33,320 bases of DNA, from NCBI GenBank assembly GCA_018400695.1, contig JAGYMF010000006.1, forward strand, positions 1 to 33,320. The letters are read 5' to 3'. The position numbers and the translations under genes were made by a program. The notes below the pieces were generated by a model that was given only the letters and a program-made list of their open reading frames with translations, did no database searches and had not been told where the DNA came from. The stretch is from Bacteroidales bacterium. Its GTDB lineage: Bacteria; Bacteroidota; Bacteroidia; Bacteroidales; GCA-2748055. Shown piece after piece: positions 319 to 11,227 of the stretch (position 1 is the first letter of the stretch; every line of letters starts with the position of its first letter).

Positions 319-351
319 CTTTTTTTATGGATTTTCAGATAATAATATTGT

Positions 352-359
352 ATATTTGT
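352..359 (+). promoter_or_regulatory. Candidate Bacteroidota -7 element (TATATTTG) upstream of the TPR-caspase gene
   Basis: Matches TAnnTTTG about 80 nt upstream of the likely ATG (440); no clear TTTG -33 box. Confidence 0.35.
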
Positions 360-439: not shown

Positions 440-2782
440 ATGAAGAAAATATTTCCATTTATCGCTGTTTTGTTGTTTATCGCCTCTGCAGGATATGGAC
501 AATCAGCCAGAAAATATTTCAAGGCCGGGGAGGATTTCCTCGAGGTCAGGAAATATGAAGATGCCATTGAACAGTTCTCAAATGCTGTTGCGCTGGATCC
601 TGAATATGACAAAGCATATATTTCCAGGGCAGCTGCTTATGAGCGGGTAAACAACTATGCTGCTGCTGCGGACGATTATGAGCGGGCGCTGGTTTTCAAT
701 GACAAGGACGAGGAATTGATGTACAAGGCCGGAAATGCTTTCTATCGATCGGGCAATTATGGCAAATCGCTGGCCATGTTGAGCAGTGCCCTGGCCAGAA
801 AAAGCAATTACCTGGAGGCATACCAGGTCAGGGTACAGGTTTTCATTGCGCTTAAGCGGTATGATGAAGCACTGGAGGACTGCAAGAGGGCGCTTCGGTA
901 CAAGGAAAATGAATTAAATTATTATAACCTGGGCGTGGTTTATGAAAAGCTTGAATTGTTGGATGAGGCTGAGGATGCTTATCAAAAATCTATTGCGAAA
1001 AATAAAAACGTGATAGATCCCTACTTATCGCTTGGTAAACTGGCTTTCCAGCGTGAAAAATATGACCTGGCCATGTCGTCTGTGAACCAGGTGCTTCGTA
1101 TTGATGCCAGGAACAAGGATGGGTTGATGTTGAGAAGCAGGATCAATGCTGCCCGGATGAATCTTAACCAGGCTGTGAATGATATTTCAGAGGCGCTGAC
1201 AATCTACAGAAATGATCCGGTTATGCATGTATTGCGTGGTGATTTTTACAAGGAACTCAGCAGACATACCGATGCTATACTGGATTATACGTATGCAATG
1301 GAGGCGGGTGACACCACTGCCCAGATATATTATAAGAGAGCAGGTGCGTATGAAAAGATTCGCGATTTTGAGTCAGCCATGAAGGACTATGATAAGTTGC
1401 TTGAAATCTCCCAGTATGACGGAACTGCACAAAAACTGTTGGCCGAGGCCCGGAAGCGCATGTTCGAGATTAACCGTGAAGACAACAAACCGGTGGTGAA
1501 GTTGGTTGAACCTGCATCGAATGAAGATAGGACTGTCTTTATTCCTAGAGGCCTTAATGTGATTGCGCTGACAGGGTTGGTTCAGGATGAGAGTGAGTTA
1601 AGCTCGCTCGTGATCAATAATTTTACAGTACAGCCTGCTGAGGTGAAAGATGGGTATGAGTTCCTGGCCAGTATCAACCTGAGGGATGCAGACCAGATCG
1701 TTGTTGAGGCCACAGATGTTTATGAAAATGTTGAGAAGGCGGTCTTCGATGTGGTATGGACGGAAACTGAAAAGCCGGATGTTAATATTATTGCTCCCTA
1801 TGCAGGAGATAACAACATCATCTATCTTGATTCAGATGATCCTGTGATCTATGTCGAAGGAAGGGTTGAGGATGAGAGTCAGATCAAGTCGATATATATC
1901 GATGATGTGGCGGCAAGCTATGTCCCCACGGATGTGAACCCGGTTTTTTCTGCGAGGGTTGCTGTGGAGAACAGAAGCAAGTTCTCGGTGAGAGCAGAGG
2001 ATGTCTATGGTAACATCGCTAACGTGGATTTTACCCTTAACCGTGAATCGACAGACTTCAGCAACAATCCGATGGGAAAAACCTGGGCAATCTTTATAGA
2101 GAACTCCAATTACGATTATTTTGCAAGCCTGGAGGGTCCCACAAAGGACATTACCTTAATGAAGACAGCGCTGAATAAATATCAGGTACATAATTTTATT
2201 CATAAGAAGGATATGACAAAAAGGGAGATGGAAAAATTCTTCTCCATTGAATTGCGCGACCTGCTGCGCAGCAACAGGGTGAGCTCACTGATGATCTGGT
2301 ATGCAGGCCATGGTAAGTTTGTAAATGAGACAGGCTACTGGATTCCTGTGGATGCACAGCGTGAGGATGAGTTTACCTATTTTAATGTGAATGCGCTGAA
2401 GGCCTCGATGCAATCATACCCCGAACAGTTGACCCATACACTGGTAATCACAGATGCCTGCGAATCAGGTCCCAGCTTCTATCAGGCCATGCGTTCAGCC
2501 AATGAGATCCGAAGTTGTGACGATTGGGAGGCAACACGGTTCAAATCCTCACAGGTTCTGTCCTCTGCAGGGTATGAGCTTGCCAGTGACGATAGCCAGT
2601 TTACCCGGACTTTTGCCAATACCCTGATCAATAATCCGGATGCCTGTGTGCCTATCGAGAGTATTGTGCAGAAGGTGACTACCGCTGTAACAGGCAATAA
2701 TCAGCAAAAGCCCCAGTTTGGGAAAATTGCCGGTCTGGAGGATGAAAATGGTACGTTCTTCTTTATTCCGAAAGATTACTAA
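440..2782 (+). CDS. Exported TPR-repeat protein with two Ig-like segments and C-terminal caspase-fold (peptidase C14) domain
   Basis: Track ORF opens at GTG 434; ATG 440 gives signal peptide MKKIFPFIAVLLFIASAGYGQS. Multiple TPR units (e.g. AIEQFSNAVALDPEYDKAYISRAAAYERVNNYAAAADDYERAL); C-terminal MIWYAGHGKF (His) and VITDACESG (Cys) match the caspase His/Cys dyad. Confidence 0.88.
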   Translation: MKKIFPFIAVLLFIASAGYGQSARKYFKAGEDFLEVRKYEDAIEQFSNAVALDPEYDKAYISRAAAYERVNNYAAAADDYERALVFNDKDEELMYKAGNAFYRSGNYGKSLAMLSSALARKSNYLEAYQVRVQVFIALKRYDEALEDCKRALRYKENELNYYNLGVVYEKLELLDEAEDAYQKSIAKNKNVIDPYLSLGKLAFQREKYDLAMSSVNQVLRIDARNKDGLMLRSRINAARMNLNQAVNDISEALTIYRNDPVMHVLRGDFYKELSRHTDAILDYTYAMEAGDTTAQIYYKRAGAYEKIRDFESAMKDYDKLLEISQYDGTAQKLLAEARKRMFEINREDNKPVVKLVEPASNEDRTVFIPRGLNVIALTGLVQDESELSSLVINNFTVQPAEVKDGYEFLASINLRDADQIVVEATDVYENVEKAVFDVVWTETEKPDVNIIAPYAGDNNIIYLDSDDPVIYVEGRVEDESQIKSIYIDDVAASYVPTDVNPVFSARVAVENRSKFSVRAEDVYGNIANVDFTLNRESTDFSNNPMGKTWAIFIENSNYDYFASLEGPTKDITLMKTALNKYQVHNFIHKKDMTKREMEKFFSIELRDLLRSNRVSSLMIWYAGHGKFVNETGYWIPVDAQREDEFTYFNVNALKASMQSYPEQLTHTLVITDACESGPSFYQAMRSANEIRSCDDWEATRFKSSQVLSSAGYELASDDSQFTRTFANTLINNPDACVPIESIVQKVTTAVTGNNQQKPQFGKIAGLEDENGTFFFIPKDY

Positions 2783-2785
2783 AAT

Positions 2786-5700
2786 ATGATATCAAAACAG
2801 ATCAGAAAAATTATTCGTCTTCACAGGCGGATAATTTTTTTATTCCTGCTATCCATGTCAGGAAGCATTGCTGCACAACATTATTATTTTGATGAGTATA
2901 GTGTTTCGCAGGGATTGGCACAATCAACGGTTTATAGTATTCTTCAGGATAAAGAGGATAATTACTGGTTGGGAACACAGGCTGGGGTTTCAAGATTCGA
3001 CGGATCTGAATTTGTGAATTTTACTGCCGAAGATGGCCTGGCAGAGGGAGGAGTCAGGGCCGTTTTTGAAGATTCACATGGAAACATCTGGCTGGGTCAT
3101 GATGGCGGAAGTGTAACCCGGTTTGATGGTCACAGTTTTAAGGTTTATGAAGAGTTGGGAACCCAACTGAAGTCAAATATTACAACGATTATTGAAGATT
3201 CCGGTGGCAAACTATGGATCACTACACAGGCATCGGGTGCGGCAATTATCAAAAATCCGGGTGCTTCGATGGACTCACTTGATTTTGAAATCTATTTGGG
3301 GCGCCGGTTGGCGGACAGGATCTTTGGGAGTATGATTGGACAGGATGGTTCATTGTATTTCGTGACGGATCCTGTCGTAAAAAAGTTTAACAGGGACAGC
3401 CTTAAGTTTGAGAACCTTGCGATGAATGGTATTCCCCGTTTTTTTGCCACAACGTGTATCCTGGAGGACAGTAGGATGAATTTCTGGTTCGGAACCCATA
3501 ATGGGGGTCTGTATCGCTATCATGCTGAAATGGAAGATACGGAAATGGTTGACCTGGTAAAGCTGGGCATGTCCACCAACTGGGTCAGCACCCTTTTTGA
3601 AGACCGCTATGGAAATATCTGGGTGGGGACCTGGGGCGGCGGTGTGGCCCGTATCGATACAAATGATCATGTGACTGTATTTGATAACAGCAATGGCATG
3701 CCGGGTATGAAAATCTGGCAGATTAAGGAGGATAAGGAGGGCAATATTCTTTTTGGAACGAACGAACATGGTCTCTGTGCTTTCAAAGGTGATTATTTCG
3801 TCTCCTATTTTGAGGAGGATGGATTGATTAACGAACAGGTGTATGCCATTGAACAAACGCATGACAAACGTTACTGGGTCGGCACCAATCAGGGTATATC
3901 TATTATTGAAGGTGATGTGACACAAAGCAGGATCCGTGATTTTGATAAATTGAAGGGTGTCAGGGTACGGTTCATAGCGGAAGACCATCATCGGAATGTG
4001 TGGATCGCAGCGGAGGGTCAGGGAGTTTTTACCTATACTTTGCGTGGCGATTTTCGTTTTGAGCCAATGATTAACAGCAATATTCCGATGGGACAGATCA
4101 CGGGGATGGCTATTGACGATCAGAATAACCTGTGGGTAGGTACGCTTGATGGACTGGTATATTATGAAATCGATAACCGGAAAATTGACCGGTTGACGCA
4201 GGTGCATGGATTGCAGGGCAATGAAATCTCTGCAGTTTTTCCTGACAGTCAGGGAAGAATATGGGTAGGGATCGATGGTCGGGGAGCTACGGTTATCGAC
4301 GGACAGGAGATTCGTTCGGTAGATCTTGGAATGGTCGTGACGCCAACCTGTTTCACTGAGGATAATAATGGTGTTATCTGGATTGGGACTGAGGGGCGTG
4401 GGGTCCTTGCATATGATGAGAATCATAAACAGGTGGTCAGTCATCTGTCAGTAAAGGACAATGGATTACTTGCAAACCTTATCAATTTGTTGAATTGCGA
4501 TGAGAATAATTACATCTACATTGGAACAAACAAAGGGCTGAATAAGTATGACCAGGAAGAGAATAAGCTGTATGGATTTAACAGGAAAAGTGGCTTTGTA
4601 GGTATTGAAACGAAACAGAATGCCACCTGTGTGGATCATGCGGGAAAAGTCTGGTTTGGAACAGGAATGGGAATTACCAGGTACGATCCTGCATTGAAAC
4701 CGAGGGATGTGATTGAACCACTGACCCATATAACCGGATTGATGGTAAACTATGAACCTTATCCCATCACGGAGAACATGGTCTTTTCTTACAGGCAGAA
4801 TTCCCTGATCTTTGATTACAGGTGTATCACACTAAATCCGGAGGCGGTGCAATACCAGATCATGCTAGATGGCATTGATATTGACTGGAGGCCTCCGGAT
4901 ACGCAGACACAGGTGAATTATCCTGCCTTGCCACCCAAAAAGTACACGTTTTACGTGAAGGCGAAAAACAGTGACGGTATCTGGAATGATCCTCCCATTG
5001 CACTTAACTTTCAGATCAAGCCACCATTCTATCTGACCTGGTGGTTCATTCTCTCCTGTATTGCAGCCCTGGGCGCCATGATTTTTGCCTATATCAAGGT
5101 CAGGGAACAGGCCCTTGTAAGGGAAAACAGGATCCTGGAAGACAAGGTCATAGAACGCACAGCACAGGTAGTGGCACAGAAAGAGGAGCTGGCGCAGAAG
5201 AACAAGGATATAACAGACAGCATCAGGTATGCAAAAAGAATCCAGTTTGCCATTTTGCCCCCAAAATCTCCTTTCCCTGAAACGTTTATTCTCTTCAAAC
5301 CGAAAGATATCGTCAGCGGTGATTTTTACTGGTTTACTGAAGTGGACGGTAAGGAGTTTATTGCTGCGGTGGATTGTACCGGACACGGTGTTCCCGGAGC
5401 TTTCATGTCGATTATAGGACACAATTCGCTGAACAAAATCGTAAAGCAGTATGGCATTCTTGATCCGGGAAGGATTCTTACAGAGCTTAACCGGGAAGTT
5501 GTTGAAACACTTCATCATACCAGTGAGGATGGAGATGTGTATGATGGTATGGACCTGTCACTGATCACATTTGACAAGGTGAATATGGAGATCAATTATG
5601 CCGGGGCCTATAATTCGATGTACATGGTCAGGAATGATGAGTTGATTGAGACGAAGGCTGACCGGCAGCCGATCGGACTGGCAGCAGGGACCACTAAAAT

Positions 5701-5947
5701 ATTCAATACACAGGTGATTAAAGTTCAGAAGGGGGATGTAATATACCTGTTTTCAGACGGGTATGCGGATCAATTTGGAGGAGAGAAGCTCAAGAAGTTC
5801 AAGTCAAAGAACATGAAGGAGCTGTTGGTGCAGATTTCGGGTGAACCGATAGAACGCCAGCGCATAATTCTTGAAGATTCAATTGAGAAGTGGCGGGGGA
5901 ACGTGGAACAGGTAGACGATATTCTGGTTATAGGCCGGAGGTTCTGA
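2786..5947 (+). CDS. Two-component-regulator-type beta-propeller / Y_Y_Y / TM / coiled coil / SpoIIE-type PP2C phosphatase
   Basis: Repeated propeller motifs (ILQDKEDNYWLGTQAGVSRFDG, VFEDSHGNIWLGHDGG, LFEDRYGNIWVGTWGGG); Y_Y_Y-like region before TM WWFILSCIAALGAMIFAYI; C-terminal VSGDFYW, AAVDCTGHGVPGAFMS, LFSDGYADQFGG match SpoIIE/PP2C metal-binding motifs. No histidine kinase domain. Confidence 0.9.
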   Translation: MISKQIRKIIRLHRRIIFLFLLSMSGSIAAQHYYFDEYSVSQGLAQSTVYSILQDKEDNYWLGTQAGVSRFDGSEFVNFTAEDGLAEGGVRAVFEDSHGNIWLGHDGGSVTRFDGHSFKVYEELGTQLKSNITTIIEDSGGKLWITTQASGAAIIKNPGASMDSLDFEIYLGRRLADRIFGSMIGQDGSLYFVTDPVVKKFNRDSLKFENLAMNGIPRFFATTCILEDSRMNFWFGTHNGGLYRYHAEMEDTEMVDLVKLGMSTNWVSTLFEDRYGNIWVGTWGGGVARIDTNDHVTVFDNSNGMPGMKIWQIKEDKEGNILFGTNEHGLCAFKGDYFVSYFEEDGLINEQVYAIEQTHDKRYWVGTNQGISIIEGDVTQSRIRDFDKLKGVRVRFIAEDHHRNVWIAAEGQGVFTYTLRGDFRFEPMINSNIPMGQITGMAIDDQNNLWVGTLDGLVYYEIDNRKIDRLTQVHGLQGNEISAVFPDSQGRIWVGIDGRGATVIDGQEIRSVDLGMVVTPTCFTEDNNGVIWIGTEGRGVLAYDENHKQVVSHLSVKDNGLLANLINLLNCDENNYIYIGTNKGLNKYDQEENKLYGFNRKSGFVGIETKQNATCVDHAGKVWFGTGMGITRYDPALKPRDVIEPLTHITGLMVNYEPYPITENMVFSYRQNSLIFDYRCITLNPEAVQYQIMLDGIDIDWRPPDTQTQVNYPALPPKKYTFYVKAKNSDGIWNDPPIALNFQIKPPFYLTWWFILSCIAALGAMIFAYIKVREQALVRENRILEDKVIERTAQVVAQKEELAQKNKDITDSIRYAKRIQFAILPPKSPFPETFILFKPKDIVSGDFYWFTEVDGKEFIAAVDCTGHGVPGAFMSIIGHNSLNKIVKQYGILDPGRILTELNREVVETLHHTSEDGDVYDGMDLSLITFDKVNMEINYAGAYNSMYMVRNDELIETKADRQPIGLAAGTTKIFNTQVIKVQKGDVIYLFSDGYADQFGGEKLKKFKSKNMKELLVQISGEPIERQRIILEDSIEKWRGNVEQVDDILVIGRRF

Positions 5948-6994: not shown

Positions 6995-9900
6995 TCACAC
7001 CAACTTGAATTGAAGTTCCGGGGATTCATTGACAAAGCTGATGAACTCTTCAGTGATTCCTATCTGCTTGTTTCTGCTGAACAGACTCACCTTCATTTTG
7101 GTGTCGGGATCCACAATATTTATTTTTAATTCCTTGCCTTCGGAGGGTACTGTAAATTTTTCCAGGTCATCAATCAGCTGTTCACTTACAGCGTCTAACG
7201 GCAGATTGAGCTCCACTGCTTTTACCAGGGTGTCTTTTACCTCCGACATGAGGTGAATGTGTTTAACCTTTAAAGAGTAAACCACTTTACCCGGCTCCTC
7301 GCGTGGTCGCCATTCATTGACAGAAGCCCTGATGAGCAATGCGATCCCGGGAGTAAAAAACTGTTTGAATTTCACATAATCATCACCGCGCAGCCTAACG
7401 GTGTATGATTCGGTAAAATCTTCCAGCACAGCCATCAGGTAGGGTTTGTTCCTCCACTGGTCGACTGTATCCTTGATTGTTTTAACAATTCCTGCAAAGG
7501 TGAATTCGTGGCCTGAAAGGGATTTCAGATCGTTCATTTCGTGGAGATTGGTTGTGCAGAAAGAGTCTATTTCTGTTTTAAACCTGTCCATTGGATGCGC
7601 AGTAAGGTACATTCCGATGAGTTCTTTTTCCCGGTTGATCTTGTCCAGCAGATTCCACTCATCAATGGCTGGAGGTTCGGGTCTGGAAATGCTTATCTGG
7701 CTCATGTCGCCGAAAAGGTTCTGTTGCGGTGTGTTTTTTTCAAATTGGAATTTGTTACCGTATTTGATCAATCTTTCAATGAATGTGGCTTCATTTTCTT
7801 CTACTTCAATGTACTGACTTCTGCTGATCTCTCCAAGTGAGTCGAAGGCTCCGGCAATCGCGAGACCCTCAAGGGTTTTTCGATTGATCGATGCAAGTTT
7901 GTTTCTTTCAACATAATCATAGATATCCAGGAAGGGGCCATGCGTATTTCTTTCTATGATCATCATCTCTACGGCAGATTCTCCGACGCCCTTAATTGCT
8001 CCAAGACCAAATCTGATATCACCATTTTTATTGACTGTGAATTTAAGTTTACTCTCGTTGACACATGGTCCGAGCACCGAGATATCCATTCTGCGGCATT
8101 CATCCATAAAAAAGCCAATCTTCTTAATGTCTGTGATGTTCCGACTGAGGACTGCTGCCATGAATTCTGCAGGATAGTGGGCCTTCAGATAGGCTGTCTG
8201 GTATGAAACATAGGCATAGCAGGTGGAGTGAGATTTGTTGAATGCATACTGCGCAAAGGCTTCCCAGTCCTTCCAAATCTTTTCAATAATTTTTTTATCA
8301 TACCCGTTCTTTTCGCAGCCCTCAACGAACTTAATCTTAAGTTCATCCATCATTTTGCGGATCTTTTTCCCCATGGCTTTCCGCAGTGAATCTGCCTGGC
8401 CTCCCGTAAAACCGGCCAGTTTACGCGAGAGAAGCATCACCTGCTCCTGGTAGACCGTGATACCGTATGTGTCTTTGAGGAACTCCTCCATCTCCTCCAG
8501 ATCATATGCGATCTTTTCGTATCCATGCTTTCGCTTGATGAAGCTGGGTATATAATCCATTGGTCCGGGACGGTAGAGGGCGTTCATGGCGATAAGGTCC
8601 TCGAACCTGTTGGGTTTTAAATCCCTGAGGTGTTTCTTCATCCCGGCAGATTCAAACTGGAACAATCCGGTTGTGTCTCCACGCGCATAAAGCTCAAAGG
8701 TTTTCTGGTCCTCGAGGGGTACATGCTCAATATCGATTGTTTTACCGGTAGATTCTCTGATGTTTTCCAGTGTATCCTTAATGATGGAAAGCGTTTTTAA
8801 TCCCAGGAAATCCATTTTCAGCATCCCGACATCTTCGACATGCTTTCCATCGTACTGTGTTACCAGCAGATTCGACTCTTTTGATGTACAGATAGGTACA
8901 TTATCAGTCAGGTCACTCCTGCCGATGATGATGCCACAAGCATGCAGTCCGGTATGGCGAACGGAGCCTTCCAGTGTTTCAGCGAATTTCAGGGTATTGA
9001 CCACCAGGGGATTCTGAGATTTTTTTTCACGGCGTAGTTCTTCTACCTCCTCAAAAGCTTTCTTCAGGCTAATGCCCGGTCGTTCAGGCACCAGTTTTGC
9101 AAGCCGGTCGGCTTCAGGAAGCGGCAGTTTTTGTATACGGGCTACATCGCGGATGGCCATTTTTGCAGCCATGGTGCCGAACGTGATGATATGTGCTACT
9201 ACATCATGGCCATATTTATCAACTACCCATCTCAGTACCATGTCACGTCCATCTTCATCAAAATCGATATCGATATCAGGCATGGAGATCCTGTCTGGAT
9301 TCAGAAAACGTTCAAAGAGCAGGTCATATTTAATAGGGTCGATATCCGTGATCCTGAGACAATAGGCTACGGCAGATCCAGCGGCAGATCCCCTTCCTGG
9401 ACCAACCGAAACCCCCATTTCTCTTGCGGCGGCGATGAAATCCTGAACGATAAGAAAGTAACCGGGAAACCCCATCCGTTTTACCGTGTTCAACTCAAAA
9501 TCGAGCCTTTCCTGTAATTCATCTGTAATTGTTCCGTAACGATCCCTGGCCCCTTCATATGCCAGGTGTCTCAGGTAGGCATCTTCATTTTCAAATGTTT
9601 CCGGAATTTTGAAGTTCGGCATGATCGGATTGGAACTCAACGAATATTCCTCTACCTTTTGAGCAATCTCCATGGTGTTCGCCAGTACTTCCGGAATGTC
9701 GTTGAAGAGTTGGCGCATTTCCGCCTGGGTTTTGAGCCACTCCTGGTGCGTGTAGCGCATCCTGTTCGGGTCATCGAGGTCTCTGCCGGTACTCAGACAA
9801 ATCAGGTGGTCATGTGCCCCGGCATCCTCCTGGTTGATAAAATGCACATCGTTGGTGGCAATGCATTTGATACCATGTTTCTTTCCCAATTGCAGCAATG

Positions 9901-11227
9901 TCCTGTTTACATATACCTGGTCATCGAAAACCCTCCTGTCTGTTTCCGGTTCATTGGTCTGATGCCTCATGAGCTCCAGGTAGAGATCTTCTCCGAACAG
10001 CGTTTTATATTCCAGGAGGATCTCCTCAGCTTTCTCCACGGACTGGTTCATGATCGCCTGGGGGATTACCCCACCCAGGCAGGCTGTCGTGACGATGATA
10101 TCTTCGCTGTATTCTTTCAGGATTTCGAAGTCGATCCTTGGCTTATAGTAAAACCCTTCCGTCCAACCCTTTGATACGATTTTCAACAGGTTATGATAAC
10201 CTTTTTTTGATTTGGCGAGCAGCACCAGGTGGTCGTTTCCATCCTGGTTTTTATCCTCCTTGCTATGCCTGGAACGTTTAGCGACATAGGCTTCAACACC
10301 AAGGATGGGTTTGATGCCCCGTTTGACAGCTTCATTATGAAACTCCTTGGCACCAAACATGTTGCCGTGATCAGTAATGGCAATTGCCCGCATGCCGTCA
10401 TCTACCGCTTTGCTGATCAGTTCCGGAATATTGGCCGCTCCATCAAGGATAGAATATTGTGTGTGAACGTGCAGGTGACAGAAACCGGCATCTTCCGGTG
10501 AGATATCCGTTTCCGGGGCAACCATCTCCACCCTTTCATGCGGCTGTTCTTCGGAGACAGGAACCGAGGTGTCGATATCAAATGCTTCGATCCGGTCGGG
10601 ATGTGCTCCGAGGAAAGCCTTGTGGTCCTCGGTCGGTATGTTTAATTTCTCAGGTGATATGATCCTTCTGCGGTAGAGTTCGAAAAATATTCTTGCTGTA
10701 GCATTGACATCAGCAGAGGCATTGTGTGCTTCGGAAAATGTTTCGGAAAACAGAATCTCATACAACTCTTCCAGTTTTGGAGATTTGTACCTGTTGCCGC
10801 GCCCGGGTAATTTGCAGAAATCACGGGTCAGTTCCATCGTGCAGACCGTGGGTGTTGTGAGCATTTTATTGCTGATTCCTGCACGGTGAAATTCCGCTGC
10901 TGTAATATTCAGATCGAATTTTACATTGTGCCCGATGATGAAAGAGGCAGATTCTATGGCCTTGTTAAATTTTGTCAGCGCTTCTGCTACCTGTACACCT
11001 GATGTCATCGCCATGGCAGTAGAGATGCCATGTACTTTTTCAGAAGCATAGGGTATTTCAAATCCATCCGGCCGGATGATCAGGTTTTCAACCTCCAGGA
11101 GTTCTCCGGTCCTGCTATGCAGCTGCCAGGCGATCTGCACGATCCTTGGCCAGTTGTTCAGGTCCTCTATGGGCGCATTGTCTCTTAATGGTAAACCGGT
11201 GGTCTCTGTGTCAAAAATTAGAAACAT
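6995..11227 (-). CDS. dnaE: DNA polymerase III alpha subunit with N-terminal DnaQ-like exonuclease domain and PHP domain
   Basis: N-terminus [13 protein letters not shown]...GHNVKFDL...[11 protein letters not shown] (DEDDh exonuclease); then [18 protein letters not shown] PHP domain; palm motifs [39 protein letters not shown]. Confidence 0.96.
   Translation of the reverse strand: [1410 protein letters not shown]

Follow-up and report, generated by a model that had tools for sequence, protein, structure and literature searches.

An Exported Caspase-Fold Protein Gene Is Paired with a Propeller-Sensor SiaA-Type Phosphatase Gene in Uncultured Bacteroidota

Introduction

The SiaABCD system of Pseudomonas aeruginosa includes a membrane SiaA-type PP2C phosphatase (PMC7647112, PMC8457831). 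The structure of its SiaC component resembles anti-sigma-factor antagonists and STAS domains (PMC7647112, PMC8457831), and the SiaC-binding stalk of SiaD carries the residues R80-I81-S82-D83-R84-Y85-Q86 (PMC8457831). Bacteroidota hybrid two-component sensors combine a Reg_prop and Y_Y_Y ectodomain with a single transmembrane helix. A Reg_prop propeller is also found in PorZ of the type IX secretion system, and PorU is a caspase-fold peptidase. The Peptidase C14 paracaspases and metacaspases (MALT1, orthocaspases) have the caspase fold with a His/Cys dyad, and in prokaryotic caspase homologues the caspase domain is commonly combined with TPR (PMC3501461).

This study was concerned with two adjacent genes in a Bacteroidales contig (GCA_018400695.1, JAGYMF010000006.1), of which 33,320 nucleotides, referred to here as the window, were analysed. 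The first gene encodes P0002, an exported caspase-fold protein, and the second encodes P0001, a sensor phosphatase. The locus shares the SiaA-type phosphatase with SiaABCD, and in sister lineages the phosphatase gene is similarly followed by genes for a SiaB-family kinase, a SiaC with an NTSS motif and a protein with a SiaD-like stalk. However, the sensing part here is a propeller/Y_Y_Y ectodomain, the phosphatase gene follows one for an exported caspase, the fifth gene found in relatives encodes transmembrane stretches and no GGDEF, and SiaB and SiaC of the window's genome are encoded elsewhere. P0001 has the ectodomain type and single transmembrane helix of the hybrid two-component sensors, but its output is a PP2C phosphatase, and histidine kinase, receiver and DNA-binding domains are all missing. 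P0002 shares the fold and dyad of the C14 enzymes; unlike them, it is exported, carries TPR and Ig-like domains N-terminal to the caspase and is genetically tied to a phosphatase. P0001 also matches PorZ through its propeller (81 bits). The pair differs from PorU/PorZ in its cytosolic phosphatase domain and in having a protease of C14, and PorZ identity for P0001 was rejected at those 81 bits against an equivalog cut-off of 260.

No description of a caspase and SpoIIE phosphatase pairing in Bacteroidota was found in the open-licence literature, where one paper contains both words, separately. The word "phosphatase" does not occur in the main text of the 2012 survey of prokaryotic caspase operons (PMC3501461). 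All of the parts belong to known families; their conserved combination and its place upstream of a SiaB/SiaC switch appear to be undescribed.

Genome Samples

Two overlapping collections were used, an order-wide sample of 393 genomes and a named collection of 80 homologous loci, which share organisms. In the order-wide sample, a phosphatase orthologue was defined as a match of at least 600 bits, with the addition of one genome (G099) whose gene is broken by N.

Results

Architecture of the caspase protein

The features of the locus are listed in Table 1. The caspase reading frame starts at the ATG at 440 and stops at the TAA at 2780-2782, an in-frame GTG at 434 being the mechanical start. The TAnnTTTG look-alike upstream was selected by the general Bacteroidota -7/-33 promoter consensus, and such a likeness is no sign of function.

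Table 1. Positions of the features of the gene pair within the window.
Feature	Position	Strand	Basis
TAnnTTTG, look-alike of a Bacteroidota-type -7 element, 5' of the pair	351..358	+	weak; no clear -33 TTTG
Exported TPR-Ig-caspase protein P0002, 780 aa	440..2782	+	ORF call, domain searches, AF2
Predicted Sec signal peptide, aa 1-20, cleavage before Gln21	440..499	+	sequence
TPR superhelix, aa 23-344	506..1471	+	Pfam TPR; AF2 helices; Foldseek OGT-type TPR
Two Ig-like beta domains, aa 352-441 and 447-534	1493..2041	+	AF2 model strands; Ig-like is a reading of the strand pattern
Caspase (C14/paracaspase-like) domain, aa 545-780	2063..2779	+	AF2, Foldseek, dyad
Propeller-sensor SpoIIE/PP2C phosphatase P0001, 1053 aa	2786..5947	+	ORF call, domain searches
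Extracytoplasmic Reg_prop beta-propeller region, about aa 34-680	2885..4825	+	PF07494 E 3e-50
Y_Y_Y domain, aa 684-745	4835..5020	+	PF07495 E 5e-12
Transmembrane helix, aa 754-772	5045..5101	+	hydropathy 2.14, only such peak
Cytosolic coiled coil and SiaA-type PP2C/SpoIIE domain	5150..5944	+	PDB 6k4e (SiaA) match; NCBIfam SiaA model

An earlier note, made from the sequence of this DNA, had described the caspase protein as exported, and the predicted signal peptide bears this out. Its hydrophobic core was present in 51 of 52 orthologues and a lipobox in one, and Gln21 was nearly invariant. P0001 likewise carries an export signal.

The predicted catalytic dyad of P0002 is formed by H624 (codon 2309-2311) and C674 (codon 2459-2461). 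Pfam C14 did not detect P0002 itself at E 0.01, and the NCBIfam EACC1-type caspase model scored it at 40 bits, under the model cut-off. Linked homologues that lack the TPR region (53-59% identity across the caspase domain) exceed the Pfam C14 cut-off. A Foldseek search with the AF2 model of the domain (pLDDT 88, pTM 0.90) gave human MALT1 paracaspase as the top match (E 1.4e-12, probability 1.00), followed by caspases 9, 3, 1, 8 and 7. By this model, the C-terminal domain of P0002 has a caspase fold with intact predicted catalytic residues.

Caspases in bacteria occur in defence systems, and P0002 gave a weak PADLOC caspase match, so an effector of cell death or phage defence whose release is gated by the sensor was considered. 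This is most improbable. The caspase is exported, chromosomal and largely syntenic, it lies beside housekeeping genes, and the neighbours are ribD, LOG, thioredoxin, dnaE and rpsP, with no defence gene nearby. The PADLOC match reached only 15 bits, and an anti-phage system was rejected.

Architecture of the phosphatase

Exactly 3 nt (AAT) separate the caspase stop from the phosphatase ATG at 2786 on the same strand, and the spacing given in the earlier note was confirmed by the coordinates. The SpoIIE/PP2C domain of P0001 was found at E 2e-16, and the acidic motifs GDF, DxTGHG, SDG and DD are all present, as they are in 60 of 60 phosphatases compared. A domain search for a kinase in P0001 found none, the cytosolic part being SpoIIE only. 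The note's picture of a propeller/Y_Y_Y sensor with an intact PP2C domain and no kinase therefore holds in these domain and motif searches.

Against PDB, the best match of the catalytic domain was SiaA (6k4e, E 2.9e-35), with SpoIIE next (5e-8). The NCBIfam SiaA equivalog model gave 195 bits against a cut-off of 700. Thus, P0001 is SiaA-like rather than an orthologous SiaA.

Conservation of the gene pair

Among the 393 genomes of the order, the caspase was found in 48 and the orthologous phosphatase in 44. All 44 phosphatase-bearing genomes also have the caspase, leaving no genome with the phosphatase only, and the caspase occurs by itself in four, including G767, where it lies at a contig end. 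In 41 of the 44 genomes the genes are directly adjacent, caspase first, with a median gap of 14 nt (range -4 to 356). The remaining three are G035 and G037, where the genes are unlinked, and G658, where the locus is at a contig end and linkage cannot be read. The co-occurrence gave a Fisher P of 4e-54, which ignores relatedness and is not readable as a probability. Of the 80 named loci, 70 have the two genes adjacent, two are at a contig edge, six have no phosphatase at the locus and two have it elsewhere in the genome. The pairing is therefore confirmed to be conserved far above chance. The earlier note had proposed a comparison of gene neighbourhoods and named rare adjacency of the homologues as a refutation of its idea; these counts show the opposite. 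Phylum-wide samples, in which two candidates were scored per genome and which were mostly near-complete genomes from other groups, gave nothing outside the window's own genome. Since they were scored so sparsely, this indicates that the family is rare in those other groups and no more than that.

Several exceptions were found. Both genes are present and unlinked in G517 and G518, as in G035 and G037, and a caspase without an orthologous phosphatase alongside occurs at loci L069, L071, L074, L077, L085 and L091 and in genomes G525, G627 and G720. At least seven loci have kept the caspase while the phosphatase is gone from the locus. A phosphatase orthologue elsewhere was not found in five such genomes searched, which have paralogues of about 31% identity or none. 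Thus, the caspase can have a function of its own, because it persists in genomes that have lost the phosphatase.

The pair is flanked by ribD on one side and LOG/thioredoxin/dnaE on the other in many genomes, so the adjacency is partly inherited. The two proteins could then be independent and the pair could persist by synteny in this neighbourhood, an explanation that would account for the whole neighbourhood being kept in many genomes and for caspases that survive where the phosphatase was lost. It is unlikely for several reasons. First, the pair stays together in G062, G099, G042 and the families f49 and f20, though all outer neighbours differ. Secondly, gene order and close spacing are maintained. 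Third, phosphatase-only genomes number 0 of 44. Lastly, another phosphatase clade has divergent caspases at the same position.

In this neighbourhood of the window (6995-11227, minus strand), DNA polymerase III alpha is encoded as a protein of 1410 aa with a DEDDh exonuclease domain fused N-terminally. Relatives have either a fused form of about 1,410-1,440 aa or a form of about 1,160 aa without the DEDDh exonuclease.

Variants of the pair

In the phosphatase tree, 43 caspase-linked members group together in a single clade with support. Four other phosphatases (L192-L195) make up a clade of their own and have divergent exported C14 caspases 3-5 nt upstream, which are about 27% identical and have three different N-terminal architectures. 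A third group (n=11) has no caspase. The caspase domain is thus a constant associate of two phosphatase clades. In several members of the third group (L200, L206-L211) the propeller-SpoIIE gene ends a cluster that also encodes a PorP/SprF membrane protein of type IX secretion, a PKD/PD40 protein and an exported protein of about 325 aa with no assigned family.

The first protein also varies within the linked clade. In G038 and G042 the gene linked to the phosphatase encodes a signal peptide and caspase domain alone, the TPR/Ig part having been lost, and G042 retains a full-length caspase copy elsewhere in the genome. These two genomes indicate that the caspase domain is the constant part. At L078, L081, L092 and L219 a second exported gene with only a caspase domain lies just 5' of the full-length caspase, giving tandem caspases before the phosphatase.

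The His and Cys of the dyad were both retained in 76 of 77 caspase domains compared. The exception, L228 (G566), is linked to a phosphatase and has His replaced by Leu with the Cys kept; its product is possibly a pseudoprotease, judging by this substitution, and proteolysis may therefore not be essential. These results bear on whether the caspase is proteolytically active and cuts the sensor ectodomain or a bound inhibitor, making the signal irreversible, as in proteolysis-gated receptors, which would be a sharper form of the envelope-sensing module discussed below. The near-universal dyad, the paracaspase fold and the caspase domain being the only constant part of the first protein across linked variants are in keeping with a protease. 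However, the His is lost in one linked copy and TPR/Ig scaffolds are equally suited to non-proteolytic binding, and we regard this sharper form as rather doubtful.

SiaB and SiaC as the probable inside partner

The gene order caspase, phosphatase, SiaB, SiaC was found in six relatives, G049, G559, G722 and G782 (f49) and G534 and G770 (f20). Their operon SiaB scores 153 bits against the NCBIfam SiaB-family cut-off of 85, and the operon SiaC matches PDB 7e6g (SiaC of the SiaC-SiaD complex) at E 8e-19, with its NTSS aligned to phosphosite T68. The SiaA-type domain of P0001 and the SiaB/SiaC operons of these six relatives make SiaB/SiaC the most likely inside partner. Linkage of SiaBC to the pair is confined to these two families, and elsewhere SiaBC is at its own locus. 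The window's genome, which is 69% complete, has three SiaC that exceed Pfam cut-offs and one such SiaB, all on other contigs; one SiaC has NTSS and two have NSGSS. In G049 and in G099, SiaB and SiaC are present in one copy each. Both proteins were present in 15 of 15 caspase-homologue genomes tested, and neither was present in six genomes without the sensor. The SiaC tree has long branches, and no firm cognate SiaC was assigned for the window's genome. These genomes carry many other SpoIIE proteins, which could use the same SiaC.

SpoIIE/PP2C phosphatases classically target STAS anti-anti-sigma factors. P0001 could therefore regulate a sigma factor by way of a canonical anti-sigma switch of the RsbW/RsbV type instead of SiaB/SiaC, particularly as SiaC is STAS-like too (PMC7647112, PMC8457831). 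However, the domain is far nearer to SiaA (E 3e-35) than to SpoIIE (5e-8) and the operon linkage is to SiaB/SiaC, which leaves sigma-factor control through RsbW/RsbV quite improbable. The earlier note had predicted an anti-sigma-antagonist-like partner encoded elsewhere. The location is correct for the window's genome, and the prediction was right in kind, given the SiaA-like domain and the STAS-like SiaC in six operons; the system indicated is SiaB/SiaC rather than a sigma-factor (RsbW-type) one.

Other arrangements of these genes were also seen. On another contig of the window's genome (G000, C163, L056, 5212-8992), a SiaC gene is convergent with the gene of another sensor SpoIIE phosphatase. 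A strongly conserved SiaB-SiaC pair that stands alone adjoins a fused ABC ATPase/ABC-2 permease protein of about 1,025 aa (L282-L292 and L294-L296), and in a paralogous set the genes run PAS/GAF-SpoIIE, SiaB, SiaC, ABC protein. Such a solitary pair is often found beside this protein in genomes that lack the fifth operon gene described below. By its position, this ABC protein may be a SiaC target and another candidate effector.

The fifth operon gene

The f49 operons (four of the six SiaBC-linked genomes) have a fifth gene after SiaC, which encodes a membrane protein with a coiled coil and two hydrophobic (transmembrane) stretches. The motif [RK]ISDRLQ, comparable to residues R80-Q86 of the SiaD stalk, is present in 7 of 7 copies (f49, f99, f20), and a wider pattern of it occurred, among 1,714 ORFs compared, only in the five fifth-gene copies present. 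The NCBIfam SiaD model matches the product at the stalk region (E 1.3e-4); a profile search against PDB did not reach SiaD. No GGDEF domain was found in the product, and no SiaD diguanylate cyclase was found beside the pair in the window. The motif and stalk match suggest that the product may be a SiaC target without a cyclase. Neither the window's genome nor most of the caspase genomes have the fifth gene. A DNA pattern search of the window's genome for the SiaD-like stalk motif gave a single in-frame match, inside a SusC/TonB-type receptor, which was rejected as chance.

Discussion

Possible coupling of the caspase and the sensor

Divergence was compared across 28 loci with DnaE, with DnaE divergence removed. 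The caspase domain gave a partial r of 0.72 against the propeller and 0.32 against the PP2C domain, and the TPR/Ig part gave 0.81 and 0.56, a signal that may partly reflect alignment length, as the alignment of the propeller has greater length and less noise. Co-divergence of the caspase protein with the propeller ectodomain fits contact in the periplasm.

The reading that we favour, and consider rather probable, is that the pair is a conserved envelope-sensing module in which the exported caspase partners the sensor ectodomain and the SiaA-type domain signals through SiaC. Direct observation provides its anatomy, the adjacency and co-occurrence of the genes, the catalytic residues, the caspase fold, the SiaA-type domain, the SiaB-SiaC linkage in sister lineages and the presence of SiaB and SiaC in the genome. 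We infer that the caspase regulates the sensor phosphatase. The earlier note's proposal of an envelope-sensing module is supported in part.

The module would operate as follows. The TPR/Ig scaffold, which is the usual carrier of the caspase domain, probably binds an envelope ligand or partner, and the exported caspase domain would act in the periplasm as a dedicated partner of the propeller/Y_Y_Y ectodomain. The ectodomain would change state through binding or through caspase cleavage, and one transmembrane helix and the coiled coil would relay this change to the SiaA-type PP2C domain in the cytosol, which would dephosphorylate SiaC at a Thr/Ser of the N-T-S-S motif, opposing the kinase SiaB. 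Unphosphorylated SiaC would then dock on the coiled-coil stalk of an effector. SiaC as the substrate, the periplasmic contact of caspase and sensor, proteolysis as the input and the identity of the effector are the inferred parts of this scheme. A more specific proposal is that the caspase is switched on by a ligand or by damage to the envelope, that the propeller is then cleaved or locked and that dephosphorylated SiaC is the output. This proteolysis-gated phospho-switch is possible and is offered tentatively.

Significance

For most caspase homologues of bacteria no pathway is known, and many Bacteroidota SpoIIE sensor phosphatases have no assigned partner. Through the pairing, one caspase family acquires a partner that is defined and conserved, together with predictions of its compartment and of its inside target, SiaC. 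In a large group of uncultured Bacteroidota, the exported caspase gene almost always adjoins a phosphatase that is predicted, by sequence and by sister-lineage operons, to drive SiaB/SiaC, so that the caspase would seem to belong permanently to an envelope-signalling circuit. Whether a bacterial caspase serves in signalling rather than death thus becomes directly testable. If true, a proteolysis-gated phospho-switch would be common to a large uncultured part of Bacteroidota.
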